NCBI RefSeq assembly: GCF_018304825.1
Contig: NZ_CP072648.1
Location: 355,501-419,500 of the forward strand
DNA: 64,000 bases
Source: Chloracidobacterium validum
GTDB lineage: Bacteria > Acidobacteriota > Blastocatellia > Chloracidobacteriales > Chloracidobacteriaceae
Reading direction: 5' to 3'
The notes under the pieces are model-generated. The model made no database searches, had not been told where the DNA came from, and saw nothing but the letters and a program-made list of their open reading frames with translations. The number at the start of each line of letters is the position of its first letter. Within the stretch, counting starts at the first letter, position 1. Made by a program: the position numbers and the translations under genes. Shown piece after piece: positions 5,219-52,897 of this stretch.

Positions 5219-6490
5219 ATGCAGACCAAACTCCTGACCAAGCGATTTGAAACGCCTAACTCCCGCAGCATCGAAACGTACCTTGCCGACGGTGGCTACA
5301 CTGGGCTGAGAAAGGCCCTGACGACGATGCAGCCGGCAGAAGTGATTGAGGAAGTCAAAAAATCCTCCCTGCGGGGGCGCGGGGGCGCCGGCTTTCCCAC
5401 CGGGATGAAGTGGGGGTTCGTTCCCGTCAACTCACCCAAGCCGAAGTACGTCGTCTGCAATGCCGATGAAAGCGAGCCGGGCACGTGCAAAGACCGCGAA
5501 CTGATGGAAAAAGACCCACACCAGCTTGTTGAGGGGTTGCTGATTGCGGCCTACGCGCTGCTGTCCAGGCAAGTCTTCATCTACATTCGTGGCGAGTACT
5601 GGTACTTAATCGCGATCCTCGAGCAAGCAATTGCCGAGGCGCGCGCGCAGGGGTTTGTCGGAAAAAGCATCTGCGGCACGGATTTTGACTGCGAGATTGT
5701 CGTTCACCCAGGAGCTGGAGCCTACATTTGCGGCGAGGAAACGGCGCTGCTCAACTCACTGGAGGGCTACCGCGGGCATCCACGCATCAAGCCACCGTTT
5801 CCGGCCGTCGCCGGGCTATACGGCTGTCCGACGGTGGTCAACAACGTCGAGACGTTTTGCGCCGTGCCGCACATCGTCGTCAACGGCGGCGATTGGTACC
5901 GTGGCTTGGGGACGGAAAAATCCGGTGGGACGAAAATTTTCTCGGTCAGCGGTCACGTCAATCGTCCGGGCAACTATGAAGTCCGTATGGGCTATCCGCT
6001 CAAGCAACTGATTGAAGAAGACTGCGGTGGCATACGCGGCGGGCGCAAGCTCAAGGCCGTCATTCCGGGCGGGTCGTCAGTGCCGATTATGACGGCCGAG
6101 GAAGTTGAGCAAGCCACGCTGGACTACGAAGGGATGGTCAAGGCCGGTTCGATGCTCGGTTCCGGGGGCGTGATCGTCATGGATGAGACAACGGACATCT
6201 TCATGACGACCTACAACTTGATCCATTTTTACAATCACGAATCCTGCGGCTGGTGTACGCCCTGTCGGGAGGGCACGGATTGGTTGCTCAAGCTCTTCAA
6301 GAAAATCGCGCGCGGCGAAGGCACGACGGCCGACCTGGACACCATCAAGCGCCTGTGCCCAAACATCGAGGGACGGTCGCATTGTCCCCTGGGTGATGCG
6401 GCAGTGTGGCCGATTACAAGCGCGATGAAAAAATTCCCGGAAGACTTTCTCAAGCACGTCAAACCGGTTGCCGCTCCGGCAGCCGCCTAA
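5219..6490 (+). CDS. nuoF: NADH-quinone oxidoreductase subunit F
   Basis: A 423-residue NuoF homologue, the FMN-carrying, NADH-oxidising subunit of respiratory complex I. The FMN/NADH pocket is seen in RGRGGAGFPTGMKWGF (residues 50-65) and the NADESEPGTCKDRE block. GAGAYICGEETALL is the second nucleotide motif. The C-terminal [4Fe-4S] ligands appear as SCGWCTPCREG plus a later HCPLGD. GGAGGA lies upstream of the ATG. No nuoE, nuoG or other nuo gene is adjacent, so complex I genes must be elsewhere, or this is the diaphorase subunit of another NAD-linked enzyme. The next gene starts 6 bases after the stop. Confidence 0.93.
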   Translation: MQTKLLTKRFETPNSRSIETYLADGGYTGLRKALTTMQPAEVIEEVKKSSLRGRGGAGFPTGMKWGFVPVNSPKPKYVVCNADESEPGTCKDRELMEKDPHQLVEGLLIAAYALLSRQVFIYIRGEYWYLIAILEQAIAEARAQGFVGKSICGTDFDCEIVVHPGAGAYICGEETALLNSLEGYRGHPRIKPPFPAVAGLYGCPTVVNNVETFCAVPHIVVNGGDWYRGLGTEKSGGTKIFSVSGHVNRPGNYEVRMGYPLKQLIEEDCGGIRGGRKLKAVIPGGSSVPIMTAEEVEQATLDYEGMVKAGSMLGSGGVIVMDETTDIFMTTYNLIHFYNHESCGWCTPCREGTDWLLKLFKKIARGEGTTADLDTIKRLCPNIEGRSHCPLGDAAVWPITSAMKKFPEDFLKHVKPVAAPAAA

Positions 6491-7072: not shown

Positions 7073-7170
7073 TGGGCAACGGCCCAACAGTTACGCCGAG
7101 CTGACGTTGAAAGGGCAGGGGGATGACAGGTGGCACGCCAGGCAACCTTCACCGCCGCAAAGCACGCCTT

Positions 7171-7190
7171 GATGAGGTTTTAGGCTCATC
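7171..7190. terminator. Short hairpin after gmhB
   Basis: GATGAG at 7171-7176 pairs with CTCATC at 7185-7190 around an 8-base loop, about 100 bases after the gmhB stop. The 6-bp stem is weak and has no T-run after it. It may be part of the gmhB/outer-membrane-protein convergent end region. Confidence 0.25.
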
Positions 7191-7205
7191 GGGGTTTGGG
7201 GTGAT

Positions 7206-7237
7206 GGGGGCGCGTGTACTGGGTCCGACACGCCCCC
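7206..7237. terminator. GC-rich hairpin between convergent genes
   Basis: GGGGGCG (7206-7212) pairs with CGCCCCC (7231-7237); after a 2-base bulge, TGT (7215-7217) pairs with ACA (7228-7230), around a 10-base loop. It sits between the convergent gmhB and outer-membrane-protein genes, where a two-way terminator is expected. No U-tract follows, so intrinsic termination is uncertain. Confidence 0.4.
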
Positions 7238-7285
7238 GGCGACTTCCCAGGCGGGACACAGCGCTTTGGCTGGGCGAACCCGCGC

Positions 7286-7888
7286 CTAGAATCGGATGAT
7301 CAGTCCGGTGCTAACTCGAACGCCATTCTGGCTGTCAGCAATCCGGTTGTCTCTGATGAACTGGTAGTCAACCGAAACTAGACGAAAGGCGACGCGCTTG
7401 CTCTGTGTGAGGTTGACGTCGAGTCCTCCGCCACCAATGAAGGTAAATGAGGTGGCATCGTCTTCAATTCGTGGAACCGCCGGTACATTTGTCGAGAACC
7501 GAGTGCTCACGCGCGTTGCACCGAACAGGGCGCGGACAAACGGCTCCACCCGACCATCTGGGTTGAAGCGATACACTGGGCCGGCCACAAAGGTGTTGTA
7601 GCGCGCGCGCAAATCAGCCGTGACCGTGGTGGGTGGCGTCCCGACCGTCAGGCTCGCGTCGCGGTTGCCCGTACCAAAGGTGTATTCACCATTGATGCCA
7701 AAGCTTTTGGTCAACCAGAGATTCGTTCCTACGCTAAAACCATTGGCATTGAGGCTATCACCGTTGGAACGATTGTTTTGAAAGGTGTACGTACCGTACA
7801 CGTCGGCTCGACCACTTGGTGTAGATTGCGCATAAGACACCGCGCTAAAGCAAAAAGCGGCAAAAGCAAGCCAGATCAGTTTTTTCAT
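7286..7888 (-). CDS. Outer-membrane beta-barrel protein (OmpA/OmpX-like porin fold)
   Basis: A 200-residue exported protein. It starts with a clear signal peptide (MKKLIWLAFAAFCFSAVSYA, cleavage about residue 20). The mature part alternates polar and aromatic/hydrophobic residues and ends in a strand finishing with Phe (GVRVSTGLIIRF), the usual C-terminal signature for Bam-dependent barrels. Strand pairs such as YGTYTFQNN, FGINGEYTFG and VAGPVYRFNPDG fit an eight-stranded small barrel. A good ribosome site (AAGGAG, at 7903-7898) lies ahead of the ATG. No specific function can be assigned. It diverges from mtnA across about 260 bases. Confidence 0.75.
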   Translation of the reverse strand: MKKLIWLAFAAFCFSAVSYAQSTPSGRADVYGTYTFQNNRSNGDSLNANGFSVGTNLWLTKSFGINGEYTFGTGNRDASLTVGTPPTTVTADLRARYNTFVAGPVYRFNPDGRVEPFVRALFGATRVSTRFSTNVPAVPRIEDDATSFTFIGGGGLDVNLTQSKRVAFRLVSVDYQFIRDNRIADSQNGVRVSTGLIIRF

Positions 7889-8148
7889 GTTTTGAAACTC
7901 CTTGGTTTTTTTGAAGTGACGCGCGTGCCAGACGCCACTTGGCGCACCGCGTGACTGGAGCGTGGATACGAACGAAGCGGTTGGATGGTTCGCTTTTTTT
8001 CCTGGCGCTGGCAGGCGTTGGGCCGTCGCGTGTTTCGAGACCGCTCGCAGATGGCCTCATTGCTGATTTGCCAAGTTTTGCTCGCTTGCTTACTATCCGG
8101 CGTCGGCTGTGGGCTATGGATGCGTAACAACGAACAGGCTGAACGACG

Positions 8149-9189
8149 ATGAACACCATTGAATGGACACCGGCTGGGCTGTGCCTGCTTGATCAGCGCG
8201 TGCTACCAGCCGAAGAGGTTTACCGCACCTACACAACCTACGAGGCAGTTGCGGAGGCTATTCGGAGCATGGTCGTGCGCGGCGCGCCGGCCATTGGGGT
8301 AGCAGCGGCTTTTGGGATTGCGTTGGGGGTTCAGTCGAGTGTTGCGGCGGGTGAGAACCTTCCGGCAGCTTTTGAGCGCATTTGCCAGACCCTTGCCGCC
8401 ACGCGCCCGACAGCGGTCAACCTGTTTTGGGCAATTGACCGTATGCGACGCAAATTTGAACAGGCCGTGGCGGACCGTCTGGCCGGTGACGAACTGGCGC
8501 AGGCGCTGGTTGCTGAGGCCCAGGCCATCCAGGCGGAAGACGTTGCGGTCTGCCGTCAGATCGGTCGCCATGGGGCGGCATTGGTTCCAGACGGCGCGAC
8601 CGTCCTGACGCACTGCAACGCCGGCGCCCTGGCAACGGCCGGCTACGGTACGGCGCTTGGCGTCATTCGCGCCGCCGTTGAAGCAGGCAAGCAAGTCGCC
8701 GTTTATGCTGACGAGACGCGCCCGTTCCTCCAGGGGGCGCGGCTCACCGCCTGGGAACTCATGCGCGATGGCATCCCCGTAACACTGATTTGCGATAACA
8801 TGGCCGGCCATTTTATGAAGTTAGGTCGCATTAGCTGCGTCGTCGTGGGCGCTGACCGGATTGCCGCCAATGGCGATACGGCTAACAAGATCGGCACGTA
8901 TATGGTTGCGGCGCTGGCGCACCGCCATCGCCTCCCGTTTTATGTGGCCGCGCCCATTTCGACGTTTGACCTGACGCTTGAAACCGGCGCTGGCATTCCT
9001 ATCGAAGACCGCGCTGCCCAGGAAGTGACCCACATCGGTAGCCACTGCATTGCTCCCCCGAACGTTGCGGTGGCAAACCCGGCATTTGATGTGACTCCAC
9101 ACGAACTCATCACAGCTATCATCACCGAGCGTGGGGTAGCCTATCCACCTTTCACGGCAACGCTGCGCCAGCTTGTTGCCAACGCCTGA
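8149..9189 (+). CDS. mtnA: S-methyl-5-thioribose-1-phosphate isomerase
   Basis: A 346-residue member of the MtnA/eIF2B-alpha family, which converts methylthioribose-1-phosphate to methylthioribulose-1-phosphate in the methionine salvage pathway. Diagnostic blocks are [14 protein letters not shown], the catalytic-Cys region [46 protein letters not shown], and the catalytic-Asp region [18 protein letters not shown]. Length is normal. It is followed after 16 bases by nagZ on the same strand. No other methionine-salvage gene is seen nearby. Confidence 0.95.
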
Positions 9190-9205
9190 GATCGCCTGAA
9201 TACAC

Positions 9206-10312
9206 ATGTTCCCGCTTGAACAAAAAATTGGGCAACTGCTGTTTATTGGATTACCCGGTCCGACGCTCGACGCTGACTCACAGCAACTGATCAAGGCAAT
9301 TCAGCCAGGGGGCGTCATTCTGTTTGCGCGCAACCTCGAATCACCTCAGCAAACCGCCGAACTCAATGCCGACATCCGCCGTTTTAGTCGGGTGATGCCG
9401 CTCGTCTCGATTGATCAGGAAGGTGGACGGGTGGACCGTCTCCGCCAGATGGCAGGGCCAATGCCCTCAGCCAAGCAAATTGCCAAGGCTGACGATGCCA
9501 AGCTGGCTTTCGAGTTGGGGGTTGTGACGGCCGACTTACTCCGTCCGCTCGGCTTCAACATGAATTTCGCGCCGGTCCTCGATCTCGACGTTGCCGGTGA
9601 CCGACCGAATGGTTTGGAAGAGCGGTGTTGGGGCATGAGTCCGTTGACGGTGATTCGCTTTGCCGGCACATACCTCGAGGGGCTGCAAAATCACGGCATT
9701 CTGGGTTGCGGCAAACACTTCCCAGGATTGGGCGATACGACGGTAGATTCGCATCATGTGCTGCCGACTGTCGAGCGTTCCGAAAAGCAACTCTTGGCTG
9801 AAGACTTGCGCGTGTATTCAGATTTATTTGGCACACTCTACACCCGCGTTCCGGCAGTCATGATTGCCCATGCCAGCTATCCGGCGTTTGATGGTCATGG
9901 TGGCATCCCGGCGTCGCTGTCGCGCAACATCGTGACCGACCTGCTACGCAAACGGATGGAATTCTCTGGCATCGCCATTTGTGATGACCTGGAGATGGGC
10001 GCAATTCAAAAGACCATCGAGTTTTCTGAAGCCGTGGTGCGGGCTATCGAAGCCGGCAATGACATGCTGCTCGTTTGCAGTCGTCCCGATTTGATCCGCG
10101 AGGCGCAATCGGCGCTCGTGCGGGCGGTCGAATCGGGACGTATTCCGCGTCCCAGGTTGGAGGCTTCGATTGACCGGATTGCCAAGATCAAGGCTATGGT
10201 CATGGCTCCGCAGCCCTACAGTGCCGAAGCCTTTCGCCGCGCAACGGAGCGATTGGCGGCCATCCATCGCGCGGTGGGTGAAGCTTCGACGCTGCAAGAA
10301 AGTTTTTTATGA
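9206..10312 (+). CDS. nagZ: Beta-N-acetylhexosaminidase, glycoside hydrolase family 3 (NagZ-like)
   Basis: A 368-residue GH3 enzyme. The substrate-binding signature is KHFPGLGDTTVDSHHVLP, which includes the catalytic His of the NagZ His-Asp dyad. The nucleophile region reads AICDDLEMGAI. The N-terminal block IGQLLFIGLPG and the SIDQEGGRVDRL motif are family-typical. NagZ removes N-acetylglucosamine from cell-wall muropeptides during peptidoglycan recycling; no signal peptide is visible, fitting a cytoplasmic enzyme. Its stop overlaps the next start by four bases (ATGA at 10309-10312), so the two genes are translationally coupled. Confidence 0.9.
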   Translation: MFPLEQKIGQLLFIGLPGPTLDADSQQLIKAIQPGGVILFARNLESPQQTAELNADIRRFSRVMPLVSIDQEGGRVDRLRQMAGPMPSAKQIAKADDAKLAFELGVVTADLLRPLGFNMNFAPVLDLDVAGDRPNGLEERCWGMSPLTVIRFAGTYLEGLQNHGILGCGKHFPGLGDTTVDSHHVLPTVERSEKQLLAEDLRVYSDLFGTLYTRVPAVMIAHASYPAFDGHGGIPASLSRNIVTDLLRKRMEFSGIAICDDLEMGAIQKTIEFSEAVVRAIEAGNDMLLVCSRPDLIREAQSALVRAVESGRIPRPRLEASIDRIAKIKAMVMAPQPYSAEAFRRATERLAAIHRAVGEASTLQESFL

Positions 10313-12546
10313 CCCCTACCGCCCAACGCTGGCTGCGATTTCTTGCACTGACCGGCGTCCTGGTCATGACGGCCTACTTGGTATCGTACTTCGTGACGCG
10401 CCGGACGCCGCCGAAGCGTCCGAGTGAAGCGCGCCAGAACCTCACGCCGGATATTGAGGTCGTCTCAAGTGATTTTCAGTACGTTCACAAAGAAGGCAAC
10501 GTGACCCGGCTGATTCTGCAAGCGAAACGGGATACCGCGTTTGTGGATGGGCGACACAAACTCGAAGGTATCGAGTTGCAATCCTTTGATGCGCAGGGGC
10601 AAGCAACGGGCAAGCTGACCGCTGACGCCTGTGATTATGACCCGACGGCGCGGGTGTCTGACTTTCGGGGCCATGTCGTCATCACGACAGCGCAGGGGTT
10701 GGACGTCAGGACCGAGACATTGCGTTACGACCGCGAAGCCGAAACTGCCACGACATCAGACCCGGTGCAGTTTGTTCGCGGGCGGATTCGTGGCGAAGCC
10801 ACTGGCGCGCAACTCGATGGCAAGGCGGATCGGCTGGTGTTAGAGAAAGCCGTACGGCTGACCATCGCGCCTGAAAAGCCAGACCAACCGACTTCGGTCA
10901 TCACGTCAGGCCGGGGCGAGTATTTGGCCCCAGACAAGCGGATTGTGCTGAGTGGTGGCGCAAGTGTCACACAACGCGGCGATGCCCTTTCCGCCCAAAC
11001 CTTGACGGCGCAGCTCGACGAAGCGCAGCGCCTGCGCCGCGTCGAAGCGCAGACGGCGGCTACCTTGCGAAGCACGGAGAAGAACTTCAGCCTGACGGCG
11101 CAGACGCTCACGTTTGATTTCGAGCCGACGGGTGGGCTGACCCGCGCAACCGGCCTTGGGCAGGCGCTCCTGCGTCAGCAAGGTGAGACTGAGCGCCGTG
11201 AAGTGTCTGGTGACCGCATGGAAGCGACGTTTACCCGTGGCGCAAGCGCTAGTGACATCACCACCGCACAAGCGACAGGCAATGCCCGTCTGCGCATCGA
11301 GTCACTGGCTGCGACAGCTTCGGCCGAGCAAAAGGTGCTTGAAGCCGGCCGCTTGGACGTGACCTTTGCACCGGGTGGACAGGTGATGCAATCGGCGTCG
11401 GCCGATGGCGGGGCTAAGTTGGTGACGACGCCGCTTGCAGCAACGCCCCAGAGCGAGCGGAAGACCATTCGCGCCCCACGTTTCGATGCGACCTTTTACC
11501 CGGACGGCAAGGTACAAACCTATGTGGCGACAGGTGGGGTCGAAGTGCTGGTCGAGCCGATGCAAGCCGGGACGAACCGTCTGTCGCGCAAGACGACCAG
11601 TGACCGCGCGGAAGCCAACTTTGACCCTACTCGCGGCGACCTGACCCGCATCGTTCAAACCGGAAACGTCGCGTTTGAGGAAGGTCCGCGCCAGGCAACG
11701 GCCGAGCGGGCGACGTTCATTCGTGAGCGCAACGTCATCGAGTTGCGCGGCGAGACGAAGCGCCCTGCGGTCTGGGACGACACCGCGCGCGCTGAAGCCC
11801 GCGAACTCGACCTTTCAACCTCCGCGCGCGAGCATGTGGCGCGTGGGGATGTCCGAACGACCTACTACGACGCCCGTCAAGCCGGGAGCGCCGGGATGTT
11901 TGGGCAGCCCAGCGCCCCAGTTTTTGTGACTTCCCGCGAGGCTCGCGCCGAACCACAGCGCGCCATGTTCACGGGCGATGCGCGTTGTTGGCAGGGCGAT
12001 AGTTTCGTGCGTGGGGATCGGCTGGAGTTGTTCAAAAGCGACCGCCGATTGACGGCGACCGGGAACGTTTCGACAGCTTTTTACCGGGTGGCCCGCTCAA
12101 CGGCGAGCAGGCCCGAAGCCAATCGTTCAGCATCGGTGGAGGGTCAGTCGCCGGTCTTTGGCACGGCACAAACCTTTACGTACAGCGATGTTGAGCGCCG
12201 GGCGCGGTACACCGAACAGGTCAAGCTCGTGCAGGGTGATGCCACATTGACGGCGGATGCCGTGGATGTTGAACTCGCCGCCCGTGAAAATCGGCTCGAA
12301 CGAATGACCGCCACCGGCAGTGTGGTCATCGTCCAGCCAGGACGCCGCGCCGTTGGCGATCTGGCGCGTTACACGGCGGCCGACGACCGCTATGTGGTGA
12401 CCGGCAATCTGGCGCGGGTTGAGGATGCCGAACGCGGCGTATCAACCGCGCCAGAAGTCTCCTTCGCCAAGTCAGATGGCATTGTCCGCGCTTCGGGTGG
12501 TGGACGCCCACAGCGTGTCCGCACGACCTATCAGTCAAAACCATAG
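10309..12546 (+). CDS. Large LptC/OstA(LptA)-like LPS transport protein
   Basis: A 745-residue protein with a single N-terminal membrane anchor (about residues 10-30), then an LptC-like segment (IEVVSSDFQYVHKEGNVTRLILQAKRDTA split over residues 45-75) and a long string of OstA-type beta-jellyroll strands. Repeated elements such as GRGEYLAPDKRIVLSGGASV, ATGLGQALL and ATGNVSTAFY suggest several LptA-like units in tandem. Such proteins form the periplasmic beta-jellyroll bridge that carries LPS to LptD, which is encoded at 52898-55450. Typical LptC and LptA are each under 250 residues, so this is unusually long. Coupled to nagZ by an ATGA overlap. Confidence 0.75.
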   Translation: MTPTAQRWLRFLALTGVLVMTAYLVSYFVTRRTPPKRPSEARQNLTPDIEVVSSDFQYVHKEGNVTRLILQAKRDTAFVDGRHKLEGIELQSFDAQGQATGKLTADACDYDPTARVSDFRGHVVITTAQGLDVRTETLRYDREAETATTSDPVQFVRGRIRGEATGAQLDGKADRLVLEKAVRLTIAPEKPDQPTSVITSGRGEYLAPDKRIVLSGGASVTQRGDALSAQTLTAQLDEAQRLRRVEAQTAATLRSTEKNFSLTAQTLTFDFEPTGGLTRATGLGQALLRQQGETERREVSGDRMEATFTRGASASDITTAQATGNARLRIESLAATASAEQKVLEAGRLDVTFAPGGQVMQSASADGGAKLVTTPLAATPQSERKTIRAPRFDATFYPDGKVQTYVATGGVEVLVEPMQAGTNRLSRKTTSDRAEANFDPTRGDLTRIVQTGNVAFEEGPRQATAERATFIRERNVIELRGETKRPAVWDDTARAEARELDLSTSAREHVARGDVRTTYYDARQAGSAGMFGQPSAPVFVTSREARAEPQRAMFTGDARCWQGDSFVRGDRLELFKSDRRLTATGNVSTAFYRVARSTASRPEANRSASVEGQSPVFGTAQTFTYSDVERRARYTEQVKLVQGDATLTADAVDVELAARENRLERMTATGSVVIVQPGRRAVGDLARYTAADDRYVVTGNLARVEDAERGVSTAPEVSFAKSDGIVRASGGGRPQRVRTTYQSKP

Positions 12547-47158: not shown

Positions 47159-47697
47159 TGACTCGGCGCGGCGGTGTGCCGCGCCGTGGCTCGTAGGTAC
47201 ATGTTCTTGAGTTCGATGTAGTGCTGGACGCCTTCGGCAATGCGCTGGCGCTCCGCGTCGGTGACGGGACGCTTCACCTTGGCCGGCACGCCCGCGACGA
47301 GTGAGCCGTCCGGCACCACCATGCCTTCGGGAACGACTGCGCCGGCCGCCACGATGCTGCCTTCGCCAACCACGGCGCCATCCAGGACGATGGCCCCCAT
47401 GCCGATGAGGCAGTGGTCGCCAATCGTGCAGCCATGGGCGATGACGCGGTGCCCGACGAGAACGCGGCAACCAATGTGAAGCGCAAACCGCCCGCCAGTG
47501 ACGTGAAGCACACTGTTGTCTTGAATGTTTGTTTCAGCGCCGATGCGAATGTGGTTGACATCACCGCGCACGGTGCAGTTGAACCAAATGCTGGCATCCC
47601 GGCCAACCTCGACCGCACCGATGACATCCGCCGACGGTGCGATATAAACCCCAGCCTCCAGCTTTGGAAATGCCTGCTCAAACGCTAGAACTGCCAT
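47143..47697 (-). CDS. Gamma carbonic anhydrase family protein
   Basis: A 184-residue left-handed beta-helix protein with hexapeptide repeats (GAVEVGRDASIWFNCTVRGD, IGAETNIQDNSVLH, IGDHCLIGMGAIVLDGAVVG). The zinc-binding histidines of the family correspond to VLHV, VGHRVIAHGC. YrdA/PaaY-like proteins are often annotated as carbonic anhydrase but their activity varies. It diverges from the bilin-reductase-like gene across 42 bases. Confidence 0.9.
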   Translation of the reverse strand: MAVLAFEQAFPKLEAGVYIAPSADVIGAVEVGRDASIWFNCTVRGDVNHIRIGAETNIQDNSVLHVTGGRFALHIGCRVLVGHRVIAHGCTIGDHCLIGMGAIVLDGAVVGEGSIVAAGAVVPEGMVVPDGSLVAGVPAKVKRPVTDAERQRIAEGVQHYIELKNMYLRATARHTAAPSHHAMP

Positions 47698-47739
47698 CGC
47701 CCCTGACGCTCCTTGTTGTGACTTTTCTGAAGCCTAGCG

Positions 47740-48498
47740 ATGACTGAACCCGACTTCAAAGATGTTGTTGGCTGGACCCTGCCCGACGCGCAAGCCCGGC
47801 TCGGTGGGCTGGGCTGGCAACGGGAAGTCCGCCCTGAAATGTTTCGTTCTGCCCGCTTTGACGCGGGGAGCAAATCGCTTCTGGTTACGGCCGATGGCTG
47901 GCAAATGGCCGATGGCAAGCTGTGCGGACGCTACGCTCGAATCCAGACCGCCGCGGCCGATGTAGCGACGCTGATGATCTATCCGACTGCCAGCCCGGAT
48001 GTCCTCCCGGTCTTTGCCTGTGAATGGGTAGTGATTGGCGCGCGCGCACATGTGCTGGTTCTGGATGTCGAGTGTCTAGGCGATGATAACGCCGCGCGTC
48101 AACGCGCGCGCGCGGCGCTTGCTCCACTCTTTGCGCGCTATGCGCCATCCCTGCCTCCGGTGGATGACCCGCCACAGTGGTTTGTGGACATTCGGGAAGA
48201 CTGGGCGTTGTTGACGTCGGGCGACCTGGCCTGTTTGTCCGTCGCGCGTCAAGCTTTTCAGGACTACCTGGAGATGACGGCCCGGGCGCTCTACGAGCCG
48301 TGGCTGGCGACGGCCCGTGCCGGAGATGACCATCCAGTGGTTCGGGCGTACAAAGAACACCACGCTGCACACTCTCCAGCTCCGGCGCTGCTCAGCGCCA
48401 AAGCCGGTGAACAGTGGACACGCACCTTCCTGCACGCTTGGCATTTCGGCCCGGTGCAGCCGACAACTGCCTCACAAGGCAACGAATCATCGAACTAA
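47740..48498 (+). CDS. Divergent ferredoxin-dependent bilin reductase (PcyA/HY2) homologue
   Basis: A 252-residue protein similar by eye to PcyA/HY2-family bilin reductases, which reduce biliverdin with ferredoxin electrons to make phytobilins. The best match is YPTASPDVLPVFACEWVVIG with VLVLDVE (residues 81-111), against the LPLFGCDIV ... AAIADLSP strand pair of PcyA. PPQWFVDI, FQDYLEM and a C-terminal EQWTRTFLHAWHFG also fit. The catalytic Asp of PcyA is Glu95 here and the His in the strand before it is absent, so an ordinary PcyA reaction is doubtful. It is first in a four-gene run. Heme oxygenase is not seen in the window. Confidence 0.65.
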   Translation: MTEPDFKDVVGWTLPDAQARLGGLGWQREVRPEMFRSARFDAGSKSLLVTADGWQMADGKLCGRYARIQTAAADVATLMIYPTASPDVLPVFACEWVVIGARAHVLVLDVECLGDDNAARQRARAALAPLFARYAPSLPPVDDPPQWFVDIREDWALLTSGDLACLSVARQAFQDYLEMTARALYEPWLATARAGDDHPVVRAYKEHHAAHSPAPALLSAKAGEQWTRTFLHAWHFGPVQPTTASQGNESSN

Positions 48499-48610
48499 GC
48501 TTGGTTTCTACCCCAGCGGGTGTGGTAGGCTTCGGCATCCCGATTTCACGGTACAGTTTCCACGGATTGCATCGTCTGTTGAGCTGCTCCAGCCGCTACG
48601 TCACCGCCTT

Positions 48611-49198
48611 ATGACTGCGCCCGCTGCCGCGCCATTACTGGCCAGCGACCGCCACCCCGCATGGTGGCCGGCCGACTTGATCATTGCCATTCATGTCGAG
48701 CTGGCACGGCTCCTGCCGGATGACATGGCGCGGGTGCTCTACCGGCTCGGACGGCGCACCGGCGCGCGTTTTCTCCAGGCGCATCACGTGACTGCTGCGG
48801 CCGACACGGCAGTGCTCCCGGTCGCCTCCGGTGGATTGTTACGGGAATGCGACGAATGGTTTGCTGATGCTGGTTGGGGGCGGTTTGACGTCGTTCGGCT
48901 TGGATCCGTCCTGGTTGTCAACCATTATGATTCACCGGTCGCCACCGCCCTGCGTTCGCTCCGCCCAGCCAACGGCCCGGTGGATGACTTCTTTGCCGGG
49001 CTTTTTGCCGAGGTGCTGACCCAGGCGCATGGGCAGGCTCTGGAAGGCGTGGAAATCAGTTGTCTGGCGGCCCAGGCACACTATTGCCGCTTTGTAGTCG
49101 GCGAGGCGAGTATCATTCGCAAGGTCTATGCCTGGCTCACCTACCACCTGGATGCGCAAGCCATCCTCAAGCGTCTCGCTGATGAAGCCGTTCTGTAA
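48611..49198 (+). CDS. V4R/BcsD-like protein
   Basis: A 195-residue protein. Its C-terminus has the V4R domain pattern (EGVEISCLAAQAHYCRFVV, Cys151 and Cys159), a small-molecule-binding fold also found in BchJ-like proteins. The middle (LYRLGRRTGARFL, then DAGWGRFDVVRL and DDFFAGLFAEVL) also resembles the layout of cellulose synthase subunit BcsD. Which relation is right cannot be decided by eye. No signal peptide is visible. ATG 48611 starts the domain cleanly; longer frames overlap the upstream gene. Eight bases separate it from the next gene. Confidence 0.6.
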   Translation: MTAPAAAPLLASDRHPAWWPADLIIAIHVELARLLPDDMARVLYRLGRRTGARFLQAHHVTAAADTAVLPVASGGLLRECDEWFADAGWGRFDVVRLGSVLVVNHYDSPVATALRSLRPANGPVDDFFAGLFAEVLTQAHGQALEGVEISCLAAQAHYCRFVVGEASIIRKVYAWLTYHLDAQAILKRLADEAVL

Positions 49199-49206
49199 AC
49201 AAGGTT

Positions 49207-49602
49207 ATGGCGCGTTTTACGGAAACTGATCAAGCTGCCCGGCTGTTACAGCAAATCGTGACCATGCCGGCAGCGCTGCAACCGGTCTCATACCCAGAAA
49301 CGCCACCGCCGCCCACCCGGACACCCTGGGCTGAAACTGCTGAGCCGGTGGCGACGGATCCCCTTCCGCCAACGACTTTGGAAGCACACGAATCCGCGCC
49401 GGTGCCGCCGCCAAGCATGAGCACAAGCATGAGCAGTGGCGAAGCCGTCGTGCGCGAATTGGTTGTCACACGCGCCGGGCAAGTGCAGCTCACCCTCCAT
49501 GTGCCACCCGGCCAACCAGCGCCTTTCAATGGAGAGACGGTTGGGCAGTTCTTTCAGCGCGTTGTCCGTCCGCTGCCACCCTCTGACCAGTCCACCACGT
49601 GA
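49207..49602 (+). CDS. Proline-rich small protein, unknown
   Basis: I do not recognise this 131-residue protein. A short N-terminal helix (MARFTETDQAARLLQQIV) is followed by a Pro/Thr-rich disordered stretch and then a small beta-rich end (VQLTLHVPPGQPAPFNGE). The N-terminal helix could bind a partner such as the ParA-like ATPase encoded 7 bases downstream. Proline-rich partners of ParA-like ATPases exist in cellulose and surface-polysaccharide loci, but no sequence link is shown. Confidence 0.6.
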   Translation: MARFTETDQAARLLQQIVTMPAALQPVSYPETPPPPTRTPWAETAEPVATDPLPPTTLEAHESAPVPPPSMSTSMSSGEAVVRELVVTRAGQVQLTLHVPPGQPAPFNGETVGQFFQRVVRPLPPSDQSTT

Positions 49603-49609
49603 GCTTGCC

Positions 49610-50416
49610 ATGCCGAAGACCCTGGCCGTTGTGAGTCTCAAAGGAGGCGTTGGGAAAACGACGACCTGTACGAATCTGGCTGCCTATGTCGCCGCCATGG
49701 GCGTTCCAACCTTGCTCGTGGACCTCGACGTGCAAAATGGCGTGCGCTTCGGGGTTGGGTTGGATGGCTACCGTGGCGTGACCCTGGAAGATATTCTGCT
49801 CGGCAGACACCATCCGGCCGAGGCGCTGGTCATGACCAATCGGGCTGAGCTGGCGGTCGTGCTCTCCGGGCATTTCACCAGCGACCAGTCACTCAGCGCT
49901 TACGAGCAGGCCTTTGAACAAGATGTCACGTGGCTGGCCCGCTGCCTGCCGCATATCGAACTACCGGATTTCTCCCCCCAGCTCATCCTGCTGGATACGC
50001 CGGCCGGCCTCGGCGCAATTACCACCAGCGCCCTGGTGGCCGCGGATGGCCTGATTGTACCCATCCAGTGCGAGCCGTTGAGTTTGCGGACGCTGCCCCC
50101 GATGCTCCGGCGCGTGCTTGAAATCAAGGCGCGCTACAACCCCAAGCTGAGTGTCGAGGGGATTTTGCTCACGATGTACGATGAACGCCAAGCCGCATCG
50201 GCCGATGTCGTGCGGCAGGTGCGCGAATCGTTCCCCAACGGACTGGTTTTTGACACCGTCATCCCCCGTCATGAGGAGTTGTCGGTGTCGTTTGCGGTTG
50301 GCACGCCGGCCGTGACGCTCAAAGCGCGTGCCTCCGGCGCGCAGGCTTACATTCAACTTGGACGGGAAGTCATCATGCGGCTCCCGGAAGAAGTCAGCTA
50401 TCCGGTGCCCGGTTAG
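49610..50416 (+). CDS. ParA/MinD-type ATPase
   Basis: A 268-residue P-loop ATPase. The deviant Walker A is VVSLKGGVGKTTTCTNLAAY at residues 7-26 with the signature Lys, Walker A' is LVDLDVQN, and Walker B is LILLDTPAG. The C-terminal part (VIPRHEELSVSFAVGTPAVT) matches the ParA/Soj family. Such ATPases position DNA, chemotaxis or polysaccharide-synthesis machines. No ParB or parS-like gene is nearby, so a chromosome-partition role is unlikely. It is last in the four-gene run. Confidence 0.9.
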   Translation: MPKTLAVVSLKGGVGKTTTCTNLAAYVAAMGVPTLLVDLDVQNGVRFGVGLDGYRGVTLEDILLGRHHPAEALVMTNRAELAVVLSGHFTSDQSLSAYEQAFEQDVTWLARCLPHIELPDFSPQLILLDTPAGLGAITTSALVAADGLIVPIQCEPLSLRTLPPMLRRVLEIKARYNPKLSVEGILLTMYDERQAASADVVRQVRESFPNGLVFDTVIPRHEELSVSFAVGTPAVTLKARASGAQAYIQLGREVIMRLPEEVSYPVPG

Positions 50417-50417
50417 G

Positions 50418-50449
50418 GCCATTCGGTCAAGCATCGTTGAACCGATGGC
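50418..50449. terminator. Hairpin between convergent ParA-like and response-regulator genes
   Basis: GCCAT (50418-50422), CGGT (50424-50427) and CAA (50428-50430) pair with TTG (50437-50439), ACCG (50441-50444) and ATGGC (50445-50449), with two single-base bulges and a 6-base loop. It sits exactly between the two stop codons and reaches into the response-regulator stop, so it may terminate both transcripts. No U-run is present. Confidence 0.45.
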
Positions 50450-51423
50450 TAGCCCGGAGATTGGCTTTTCATTTCCCTCACCATTGCGTCCCGGCAGTTG
50501 GGACAAATCCCATGCGTGAACTGGAAGTTGCACATCCGCTGGAAGTAGGTTTCAAACCGCACCGTTACCGTTACATTGTCGGCATTGCGTTCCATGATGT
50601 CTCGACAGTAGGCGCAGACGCGAATGTACTCCGGTAGCGACTGGTAAGCCGGCGCGGCCTGGACCGGGTGGAGCATCACAATGACGTCAACGTTGTGGCG
50701 CGCCTCCGGCCCACCGGCACCCTGCGCGTTCGGAATGGGGATCGCCTCCACCTGAACGTGGACCCGCTTGCCGGCCCGAGATTGGCACCACACCGACTCG
50801 ACGCGGACTTCCTGTCCCTGGGCGAGACACTGGGCAACCGGATCAATACTTTCTCCAGCTTCGCCGAGAAAGACCAAAACTTCGTCATCCCGCGCGCAAT
50901 CAGACCCATCGCTGCCGGTCAATTCCACGGCGGCCGGATTGAGATAGATGGGCCGCCGGGTAGCATCCAACACGAGTACGGCATCCGTCAGCTTGGCAAG
51001 CGTGGATAGGTAGTGCCGTTCACGCCGGCGGTAGTTCTGTTCCTCCGCGTGTTTCTGGAGAGCGATGCTAATGGCCGATTGAAAAGAGGCGTCATGAATG
51101 GGCTTGGCTACGTAGCCAGCCGCGTGGCCCGACAGGACTTGTTTGAGTGTTTTTTGATTGGTATTGGCCGTGAGATACACAATTGGAATCCCAAAGCGGT
51201 CATGGATTTGCTGGCCAACCGTAACGCCGTCCAGGTGGTCGGCGAGGCGGATGTCCATCAGAACCAAATCGGGCGGCGCAGCCGTAATCAGGGCGATGGC
51301 ATCTTCACCACGGGTAGCCGTGCCGGTCACCGTGTAGCCGAGGTTTTCGAGCCGGAGCCGCAGCGCTTCGGCCACAATGGTTTCGTCCTCGACAATGAAA
51401 ATACGCTTACGGTCTGCATCCAT
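50449..51423 (-). CDS. Response regulator with REC, PAS-like and Cys-rich C-terminal domains
   Basis: A 324-residue protein. The receiver domain shows IFIVEDETIVAEAL, the phospho-acceptor Asp in LVLMDIRLADHLDGV, the Thr in VYLTANT and the Lys in GYVAKPIHD. A PAS-like segment (STLAKLTDAVLVLDATRRPI) follows. The C-terminus has RVCAYCRDIMER ... GICPNCRDAMV, the Cys-x2-Cys pair often found behind PAS domains in signalling proteins. No DNA-binding output domain is visible, so it likely relays or integrates signals. It is 31 bases after the histidine kinase gene. Confidence 0.88.
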   Translation of the reverse strand: MDADRKRIFIVEDETIVAEALRLRLENLGYTVTGTATRGEDAIALITAAPPDLVLMDIRLADHLDGVTVGQQIHDRFGIPIVYLTANTNQKTLKQVLSGHAAGYVAKPIHDASFQSAISIALQKHAEEQNYRRRERHYLSTLAKLTDAVLVLDATRRPIYLNPAAVELTGSDGSDCARDDEVLVFLGEAGESIDPVAQCLAQGQEVRVESVWCQSRAGKRVHVQVEAIPIPNAQGAGGPEARHNVDVIVMLHPVQAAPAYQSLPEYIRVCAYCRDIMERNADNVTVTVRFETYFQRMCNFQFTHGICPNCRDAMVREMKSQSPG

Positions 51424-51454: not shown

Positions 51455-52879
51455 TCAGAGCTGAGTCTTGGTGAGCGGGAATGCCAACGCAGCACGAAAC
51501 TGGCCTGGCTGCGGGTCGAACGCGATTGTCCCGGCAATCTGTCGGGTTAGCAAGTCCACCAGGCGGAGCCCAAGGCGCTTCGAGCTGCGCAACCGGTCCT
51601 TCACATCGGATGGGTGACAGGTGCCGTCATCAATGACCTCAAGGGTGACGGTATCGGCTGATTGATGCAACTGGATGCCTATCGTCCGTGCTCCGGCCGC
51701 CGCGCCATGCTTGAAGGCGTTGGTGAGTAACTCATGGGCAATCAACGCAACCGGTACGGCTAGGTCAAGCGGAATTCCCAGTTGGCTTGGGTGCAGTGTC
51801 ACTTGAATCGCTGAGTCAGCAAAGATGGTCTGGATGTTGGCAGTCAGTGAAGACAGCAATTCGTCAAGCTGGATCCGGCTGAAATCCTGCTGGATATACA
51901 GTTGCTCGTGGATTAGCGCGATTGCTCTGATGCGCGACTGAACGCGAGGGAGCAAGGGCGCCAGGTTGTGACCGTTTGGCTCGGCCGCATGCAACTCCAG
52001 AAGGCTCAGCACGGTTTGAAGGTTGTTTTTGACACGGTGGTGAACTTCCTTGAGCAGCACCGAACGCTCTTCGAGCGCATCGTTGAGAATGGCAATCATC
52101 GCTTTTTCCCTGGTGACGTCCCGTTGGAGCACCACCCAGTAAAGCACGCGCCCCGAGGCGTCGGCGAACGGGGAAATGCTGATGTCCGCGATGAACTCTT
52201 GTCCATCCTTGCGGTAGTTGACCAGCTCAACCCGGACCGGTTCCCACCGCTCCAGTGCCGACCGGAGCTGGTCGAGCCGGTCGCGCTGGGTTTTCGGACC
52301 CTGAAGAATGCGCGGTGTTTGTCCGATGACTTCGGCGCGCGTGTAACCGGTGGCCCGTTCAAACGCCTCGTTGACGTAAACGATCCGCGGCCCGCCTTCG
52401 GCCGCGTCAATGGGCCAAGCTTCGGTGATCAAGACCATATCCTGCATCTGCTCGAGCACGAATCTCAGCAGTTGCAAAGCATCCTGGTTTTGCTTCTGAG
52501 CCGCGACATCCCGCCCCCAGGCCAGTGTGCCGATCACCGTTCCGTCGGCATCACGGACGGGCTGCCAGTGAATCTCACAGGTTTGAGCTTCCTGACCGAA
52601 GTTGATTTCGTAAGAACCCTTGTATGGCAAGTCCCTACGTGCTTGTCGCCAGTTGGTTTCGACTTGTTTTTGAAGGTCAGGGTTCACAAGCCAGTCGCTC
52701 AGGCGCTCGCCGATTTGCGGACGGCGGCCGGAAAGTCGCTCAAAAAACTGCGCGTAGGACTCATTGAAAAAGCGCAACCGGAAGTCCGGGTCGTGGTAGC
52801 ACAGAGCACCCGGAGTGAGGTTGATCACGGCTTGCAGGATAGACTCCAGCCAGTCACTTGGCAGCGATTTCTGTTCCAT
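51455..52879 (-). CDS. HisKA_2-type histidine kinase with two PAS domains
   Basis: A 474-residue sensor kinase without membrane helices. The first PAS domain covers about residues 15-125. The second, about residues 130-260, is LOV-like in sequence: GQTPRILQGPKTQRDRLDQL with VELVNYRKDGQEFIADISIS, but the photoactive Cys of a true LOV domain is replaced. The dimerisation/phospho-acceptor helix is LLKEVHHRVKNNLQTVLSLL, typical of HisKA_2 (EHHRVKNN). The ATPase N-box region contains IAHELLTNAFKHG. ATG 52879 is preferred over a TTG at 52894. It follows lptD by 18 bases, with its response regulator next. Confidence 0.92.
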   Translation of the reverse strand: MEQKSLPSDWLESILQAVINLTPGALCYHDPDFRLRFFNESYAQFFERLSGRRPQIGERLSDWLVNPDLQKQVETNWRQARRDLPYKGSYEINFGQEAQTCEIHWQPVRDADGTVIGTLAWGRDVAAQKQNQDALQLLRFVLEQMQDMVLITEAWPIDAAEGGPRIVYVNEAFERATGYTRAEVIGQTPRILQGPKTQRDRLDQLRSALERWEPVRVELVNYRKDGQEFIADISISPFADASGRVLYWVVLQRDVTREKAMIAILNDALEERSVLLKEVHHRVKNNLQTVLSLLELHAAEPNGHNLAPLLPRVQSRIRAIALIHEQLYIQQDFSRIQLDELLSSLTANIQTIFADSAIQVTLHPSQLGIPLDLAVPVALIAHELLTNAFKHGAAAGARTIGIQLHQSADTVTLEVIDDGTCHPSDVKDRLRSSKRLGLRLVDLLTRQIAGTIAFDPQPGQFRAALAFPLTKTQL

Positions 52880-52897
52880 CGGCTTGCTTCGCAATGG

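Follow-up and report, generated by a model that had tools for sequence, protein, structure and literature searches.

Within a 64,000-nucleotide stretch of Chloracidobacterium validum DNA (contig NZ_CP072648.1, positions 355,501 to 419,500; hereafter the window), four genes of the + strand follow one another (Table 1). They encode a homologue of the ferredoxin-dependent bilin reductases (FDBRs), called BIL below, a V4R-fold protein (V4R-C1), a proline- and alanine-rich linker protein (PRO) and a ParA-family ATPase. We infer, with a probability of about 40%, that a pre-1-like bilin reductase and a tightly packed V4R-PRO-ParA module together position tetrapyrrole or bilin handling. The association of FDBR and V4R genes has already been described; as far as a limited literature search goes, the combination of a third V4R protein, a linker with an FF motif and a dedicated clade of ParA ATPases appears to be undescribed. 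An earlier note on the same DNA had reported four genes on one strand with the last three 8 and 7 bases apart; their positions and these two spacings were confirmed, and 112 bases separate BIL from V4R-C1. The genome from which the window is taken (G000) consists of two contigs and 3.66 Mb.

Table 1. Features of the four-gene region and of the partner cluster (window positions, unless a contig is named)
Feature	Coordinates	Strand	Evidence
BIL, homologue of the ferredoxin-dependent bilin reductases, 252 aa	47740..48498	+	Pfam PF05996, predicted fold, alignments
V4R-C1, V4R-fold protein, 195 aa	48611..49198	+	Pfam V4R, predicted fold, tree grouping
PRO, Pro/Ala-rich linker protein, 131 aa	49207..49602	+	9-protein alignment, composition and motif test
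FF motif in the C-terminal part of PRO (TVGQFFQRV, residues 111-119), a candidate motif for docking on V4R	49537..49563	+	motif matrix
ATPase of the ParA family (268 aa; Walker A of the deviant type, KGGVGKTT)	49610..50416	+	AAA_31, PDB sequence matches, tree clade
slr0144-0149-like cluster (locus L093)	G000:C1:1058001-1076000, 7573-11488	minus	sequence resemblance

Families of the reductase, the V4R protein and the ATPase

The earlier note had taken the first gene for a bilin reductase homologue, and both profile and structure bear this out. BIL scored 42.9 bits against the Fe_bilin_red family (PF05996, cut-off 31, E 6e-11), and its AlphaFold2 model (pLDDT 89, from a 10-row alignment) matched gtPebB with a Z score of 24.6 (rmsd 2.4, 227 residues aligned), i.e. 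an FDBR fold. PebA (Z 23.2), PcyA (about 21.5-23) and RCCR (about 19) were also matched. Lower down were coproporphyrinogen oxidases (Z about 10-14, HemF being at 13.7); two FtsHi motor complexes from chloroplasts were also hit, with one chain apiece, at Z of about 21. Two aspartates of gtPebB and PebA, which we take to be the catalytic pair of FDBRs, are replaced in BIL: Glu95 aligns with the Asp of the 'GLDLV/GVDLL' segment and Ser212 with that of 'KDP/RDP'. Glu95 is present in 10/10 rows of the BIL alignment and Ser212 in 9/10, the remaining row (G012) having Thr. Judged from its sequence, BIL is an FDBR homologue with an altered active site.

It may also be akin to the pre-1 bilin reductases described by Rockwell, Martin and Lagarias (2023, PMC10151467). 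These enzymes are without the Asp, His and Glu of PcyA, and their genes occur in the company of those for V4R, Fe-S and globin proteins. The paper mentions Chloracidobacterium and states that it lacks heme oxygenase; the single pre-1 enzyme assayed produced small amounts of phytochromobilin. In terms of the pre-1 criterion (PcyA-type Asp105, His88 and Glu76 absent), BIL has Glu at one Asp position in the alignment to gtPebB and PebA. FDBR profile matches were obtained in 8/162 genomes of the class and in 3/396 of the phylum (one of the three below cut-off); these counts are lower bounds, because BIL of G001 and of G006, detected by tblastn at 67-68%, escapes the Pfam model.

V4R-C1 came just under the cut-off of the Pfam V4R family (PF02830; 28.8 bits for a cut-off of 31, E 1.3e-6). 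Its predicted structure (pLDDT 85) matched the V4R sensor domain of MopR (Z 16.4), an archaeal TRAPPC3 from Thorarchaeota (13.9) and BcsD entries (11.6-12.6), so that the modelled fold is clearly of the V4R/TRAPPC3 type, which BcsD shares. With the Cellsynth_D family (PF03500, BcsD), no Pfam row was returned at E up to 10 with the speed filters on; the name 'V4R/BcsD-like' given to this gene in the earlier note therefore stands for V4R, with the profile score below cut-off, and is true of BcsD as regards the fold only. The protein was also well below the equivalog cut-off of BchJ (TIGR02019; 15.9 versus 74.3 bits). In the tree, V4R-C1 and V4R proteins from G007, G008 and G009 form one group (support 97/97). 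Glu148, Cys151 and Cys159 are invariant in 10/10 rows of the C1 group, and Asp125 stands where two clade-A rows have Cys; this spacing resembles what we take to be the zinc site of MopR.

The fourth protein is a ParA-type ATPase, as previously proposed: it scored 99.5 bits against AAA_31 (Pfam), its closest PDB sequences are ParA/Soj proteins, and the deviant Walker A motif is retained in 9/9 orthologues. A 23-row tree places the module proteins in a clade of nine (support 99/97); the Soj-like ParAs from G000, G008, G009 and five further genomes lie apart from it. Also outside this clade are BcsQ and MinD, at a weak fork (72/85) with long branches. Among the matches listed, those of at least 296 bits come only from G000-G006, G008 and G009, and the next is at 147.5 bits. 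The top NCBIfam model is that of BcsQ (TIGR03371), for which the protein is below the equivalog cut-off (90.4 versus 157.85 bits); this score and the separate tree grouping disfavour its assignment as BcsQ. The Arg of the Soj IPRNVRL segment, presumably the residue that contacts DNA in B. subtilis Soj, is present in 8/8 Soj-like rows and in three of the four other ParA-like rows (the fourth has Lys), is absent from BcsQ and MinD, and is replaced by Glu or Gln in 9/9 module ParAs. Because this Arg is lost, anchoring of the module ParA may not be a Soj-like binding to the nucleoid.

The partner cluster and the FF motif of the linker

A second set of related genes lies elsewhere in G000, on contig C1 at about 1,065,600-1,069,500 (7573-10809 of locus L093). 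It comprises a flavin-reductase-like gene, a [2Fe-2S] gene, V4R-A, an FF-motif linker, a phycobiliprotein-like globin of the bilin type and V4R-B, all named by sequence resemblance; a gene resembling a protein kinase comes next. The genome thus holds the set of the pre-1 clusters (Fe-S, two V4R, BBAG globin), with the FDBR not adjacent to it.

The globin was found in 9/14 genomes (7/7 Chloracidobacterium, G007 and G012, not G008-G011 nor G013), and BchL over cut-off in eight of the 14, G000-G007 only. G008 has V4R-V4R-PRO-ParA, yet neither the globin nor BchL over cut-off was found there. As to the heme oxygenase families, PF01126 was matched in 0/11 genomes (controls matched in 3/14) and PF14518 in 3/14, G009, G011 and G012, with none in the seven Chloracidobacterium, G007 or G008; the phytochrome PHY domain was matched in 0/14 genomes (controls matched in 1/14). 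That neither phytochrome nor heme oxygenase is near the module, as had been noted before, was confirmed. In G012, a member of the same order, the FDBR match is stronger (106 bits), and a flavin-reductase-like gene, a PF14518 protein and a cluster of globin, V4R and [2Fe-2S] genes are also present (loci L091 and L092); since this genome has no BchL over cut-off, a bilin/V4R gene set exists without detected BchL.

For PRO, no Pfam match was found, nor any PDB sequence at E up to 10. The nine PRO proteins that were aligned include a G007 member brought in by a match at E 1e-5 and a G008 member identified by its position between V4R and ParA and by its two ends. Conserved among them are FxETxxAAxLL in the N-terminal part and E[TS]VxxFFxRxV in the C-terminal part; the linker in between is variable, and the proline content is 7-18%. 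The C-terminal motif was scored with a matrix made from eight motifs of linker proteins only: two from L093, three from L092 and three from plasmid pREC2 of Acaryochloris. The score of the window PRO was reached by 12 of 5000 shuffles, and seven of the nine PROs were at or below 66/5000, at the conserved place. BIL, V4R and two BcsPs did not stand out in this test. The FF motif of PRO thus resembles, at the level of sequence, those in the linkers of V4R/globin clusters. BcsP as a motif relative of PRO was found unsupported, the scores of the two BcsPs being reached by 1014 and 1448 of 5000 shuffles; the likeness of BcsP LQTLFERL to PRO VGQFFQRV is by eye only. The pREC2 plasmid (A. marina MBIC10699) carries, between V4R and globin genes, a 120-aa protein (L097:7531-7893) with three VxxFFxxxxW-type repeats, FL replacing FF in the first, which is possibly a V4R-binding linker.

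Recurrence and neighbourhood of the module

The recurrence of the four genes in relatives, which the earlier note had proposed as support for a unit, was found throughout the genus: the order BIL-V4R-PRO-ParA is present in 7/7 Chloracidobacterium genomes (G000-G006), with gaps of 112-166 bases for BIL-V4R, 6-13 for V4R-PRO and 6-15 for PRO-ParA. That the four would stay together did not hold everywhere. G007, from another genus, has BIL-V4R-V4R-PRO on one contig of 4.6 kb; nine neighbour proteins were searched for on this contig and gave no match, a test that covers, upstream of BIL, no more than about 1.6 kb. G008, again from another genus, has V4R-V4R-PRO-ParA side by side, with BIL on a different contig; G009 has a V4R pair and a ParA orthologue, on separate contigs, and no FDBR match. 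The FDBR is separable from the V4R-PRO-ParA trio, as G008 and G009 illustrate. V4R matches at E up to 0.001 were obtained in 13/158 genomes of the class.

Upstream of BIL in the window is a divergent gamma-carbonic-anhydrase-like gene (gca), and downstream of ParA a convergent pair coding for a response regulator and a PAS histidine kinase. In the other Chloracidobacterium loci, comF, PAP2, YggT and gca lie beside the module in 6/6 cases and tldD in 5/6. The best NCBIfam model for the histidine kinase (51455-52894, minus strand) is the blue-light-activated kinase, at 179.5 bits for a cut-off of 450, and the LOV cysteine, judged by eye, is absent. A scan of 47500-50600 revealed no promoter or terminator above chance, and the repeats in the four-gene region were short, weak pairs only. 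The dN/dS values of the module genes ranged from 0.12 to 0.53 for the single close pair G001/G006, which shows few differences (three for PRO).

Proposed mechanism and its rivals

In the mechanism that we propose, V4R-C1 would oligomerise and/or bind a tetrapyrrole or hydrophobic ligand, and PRO would act as a bridge, its C-terminal FF motif docking on a V4R protein and its conserved N-terminus on ParA. The ATPase could then gather or position the assembly by ATP-driven cycling, and a bilin or another tetrapyrrole might be reduced and handed over to the globin at a defined cell site. The working mode would be like that of BcsD-BcsP-BcsQ or McdA-McdB, the cargo being a complex that handles tetrapyrroles; such a positioning logic is suggested by analogy, because the layout of V4R-fold, Pro-rich and ParA proteins is the same as in BcsD-BcsP-BcsQ.

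The earlier note held that these families are not usually found together; this is true only in part, as both halves of the set have documented parallels. FDBR and V4R genes are associated in the pre-1 pre-PcyA clusters (PMC10151467), which share with the present genome an FDBR homologue with changed active-site residues and V4R, [2Fe-2S] and BBAG globin genes in one genome; what differs here is that the FDBR is away from the globin cluster and shares its locus with a third V4R, a linker bearing an FF motif and a ParA ATPase (the word ParA is absent from the main text of that paper). The slr0144-slr0152 operon of Synechocystis likewise has a V4R pair (Slr0144 and Slr0147) with [2Fe-2S] and phycobiliprotein-like genes (PMC13326532, PMC10151467). 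Comparable clusters are present on two plasmids of Acaryochloris, one of them with the 120-aa FF-motif protein; these two stretches differ in having neither FDBR nor ParA among their annotated genes. Six bilin-related terms are all absent from the main text of the Chloracidobacterium genome paper (PMC8245765).

The other half has its parallel in type I cellulose secretion, where BcsP, a proline-rich protein, recruits the V4R-fold BcsD into scaffolds together with BcsQ, an ATPase of the ParA/MinD family (PMC11470070). Among the papers listed in a literature search, none names both V4R and BcsD. The genes stand in the D-P-Q order in a Caballeronia plasmid locus (L107: BcsD 5893-6348, BcsP from 6472, BcsQ 7128-7916). 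It is very improbable that the window trio is a remnant of such a cellulose system, with V4R-C1 as BcsD, PRO as BcsP and ParA as BcsQ, even though the BcsD fold match, the gene order of L107 and the top rank of TIGR03371 would fit. Against it stand the missing Cellsynth_D match of the window protein, the sub-cut-off BcsQ score and the position of ParA apart from BcsQ at the weak fork, as well as the BcsP proteins, which do not score for the PRO-type motif in the test used. Moreover, BcsB (PF03170) gave 0 matches in G000 (controls matched in 2/14). Cellsynth_D was matched in 0/297 Acidobacteriota genomes, which is not proof of absence since the controls gave no match either. From its sequences, the module would be analogous to BcsD-BcsP-BcsQ, not a member of it. 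With McdA-McdB and other ParA/MinD systems for cargo positioning (PMC10241942), the module has in common a small putative adaptor of low complexity ahead of a ParA-family ATPase; it differs in that none of its four genes codes for a microcompartment or a known cargo, and in the loss of the Soj-type Arg.

A rival that we rate as rather unlikely is that two unrelated neighbours lie side by side by ancestry, i.e. a stand-alone pre-1 FDBR and a V4R-PRO-ParA operon with another function, such as an envelope or signalling scaffold. The width of the BIL-V4R gap, the location of BIL elsewhere in G008, the presence in G009 of a V4R pair and a member of the ParA clade without FDBR match, and the conservation of flanking genes within the genus would all agree with it. 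It accounts less well for G007, where BIL stays by V4R-V4R-PRO though none of the nine neighbour proteins has a match on the short contig, for the FDBR-V4R association documented in other phyla (PMC10151467) and for the likeness of the PRO motif to that of V4R/globin clusters. A further possibility, doubtful though somewhat better placed and compatible with the positioning mechanism, is that BIL acts in an RCCR-like way on a tetrapyrrole other than biliverdin, open-chain or cyclic (for example a breakdown product of bacteriochlorophyll or heme), with the V4R proteins as carriers. The profile results for PF01126, PF14518 and PHY, the Glu and Ser in place of the two Asp of gtPebB/PebA and the RCCR fold match point in this direction. 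Conversely, BIL is closer in fold to gtPebB, PebA and PcyA (Z about 21.5-24.6) than to RCCR, an external source or an oxygenase not recognised as such could provide biliverdin, and the assayed pre-1 enzyme did yield some phytochromobilin (PMC10151467). Besides, not every carrier can be accounted for by a chlorophyll catabolite, because G008 has BIL and no BchL over cut-off.

Several observations weigh against the positioning mechanism itself. The order kept within the genus is weak evidence, because comF, PAP2, YggT, gca and tldD are also kept, and BIL, with its gap of 112-166 bases to V4R in the Chloracidobacterium genomes, is unlinked in G008 and without match in G009. On the G007 contig no ParA start is present in the about 100 bases after PRO, and the best ParA match in that genome (E 1.1e-36) is in the Soj range. 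No heme oxygenase was found in Chloracidobacterium to supply the substrate. The G008 PRO gave no blast match, the motif test fails in two of the nine PROs (G002 and G005, 332 and 504 of 5000), and the nine proteins are not independent of each other; single motif scores near 1-3% need caution, because the ParA protein, taken as a control, reached 146/5000 at an unrelated place. Finally, the D-P-Q order comes from one locus: in L095 bcsD-bcsP is followed by a ParA-like stretch of 23 residues only, and in L108 a BcsD-like gene has neither BcsP nor BcsQ beside it.

To conclude, the joint interpretation of the earlier note, a tetrapyrrole system at a defined cell site or a surface-polymer set, is partly supported, its surface-polymer part being weakened by the negative search for BcsB in the genome. 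A broader proposal, which we rate as rather unlikely as a whole, is that ParA and the FF-motif linker use a V4R scaffold to place tetrapyrrole or bilin chemistry, in a BcsPDQ-like arrangement whose cargo is metabolic. It would have come together separately from the cellulose arrangement and would also exist in a relative in which BchL was not detected. The role of V4R proteins in photosystem assembly is described as unresolved (PMC13326532). If the positioning mechanism is true, these proteins would gain a testable mechanism, namely FF-linker docking and, in this lineage, ParA-driven placement; bilin-pathway genes would be at work in an anoxygenic phototroph without heme oxygenase or phytochrome profile match, and the role of pre-1 reductases and bilin globins would become directly testable. 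It also suggests that a V4R/BcsD-fold protein, a proline-rich linker and a ParA ATPase may be a recurring way to build scaffolds positioned in the cell.

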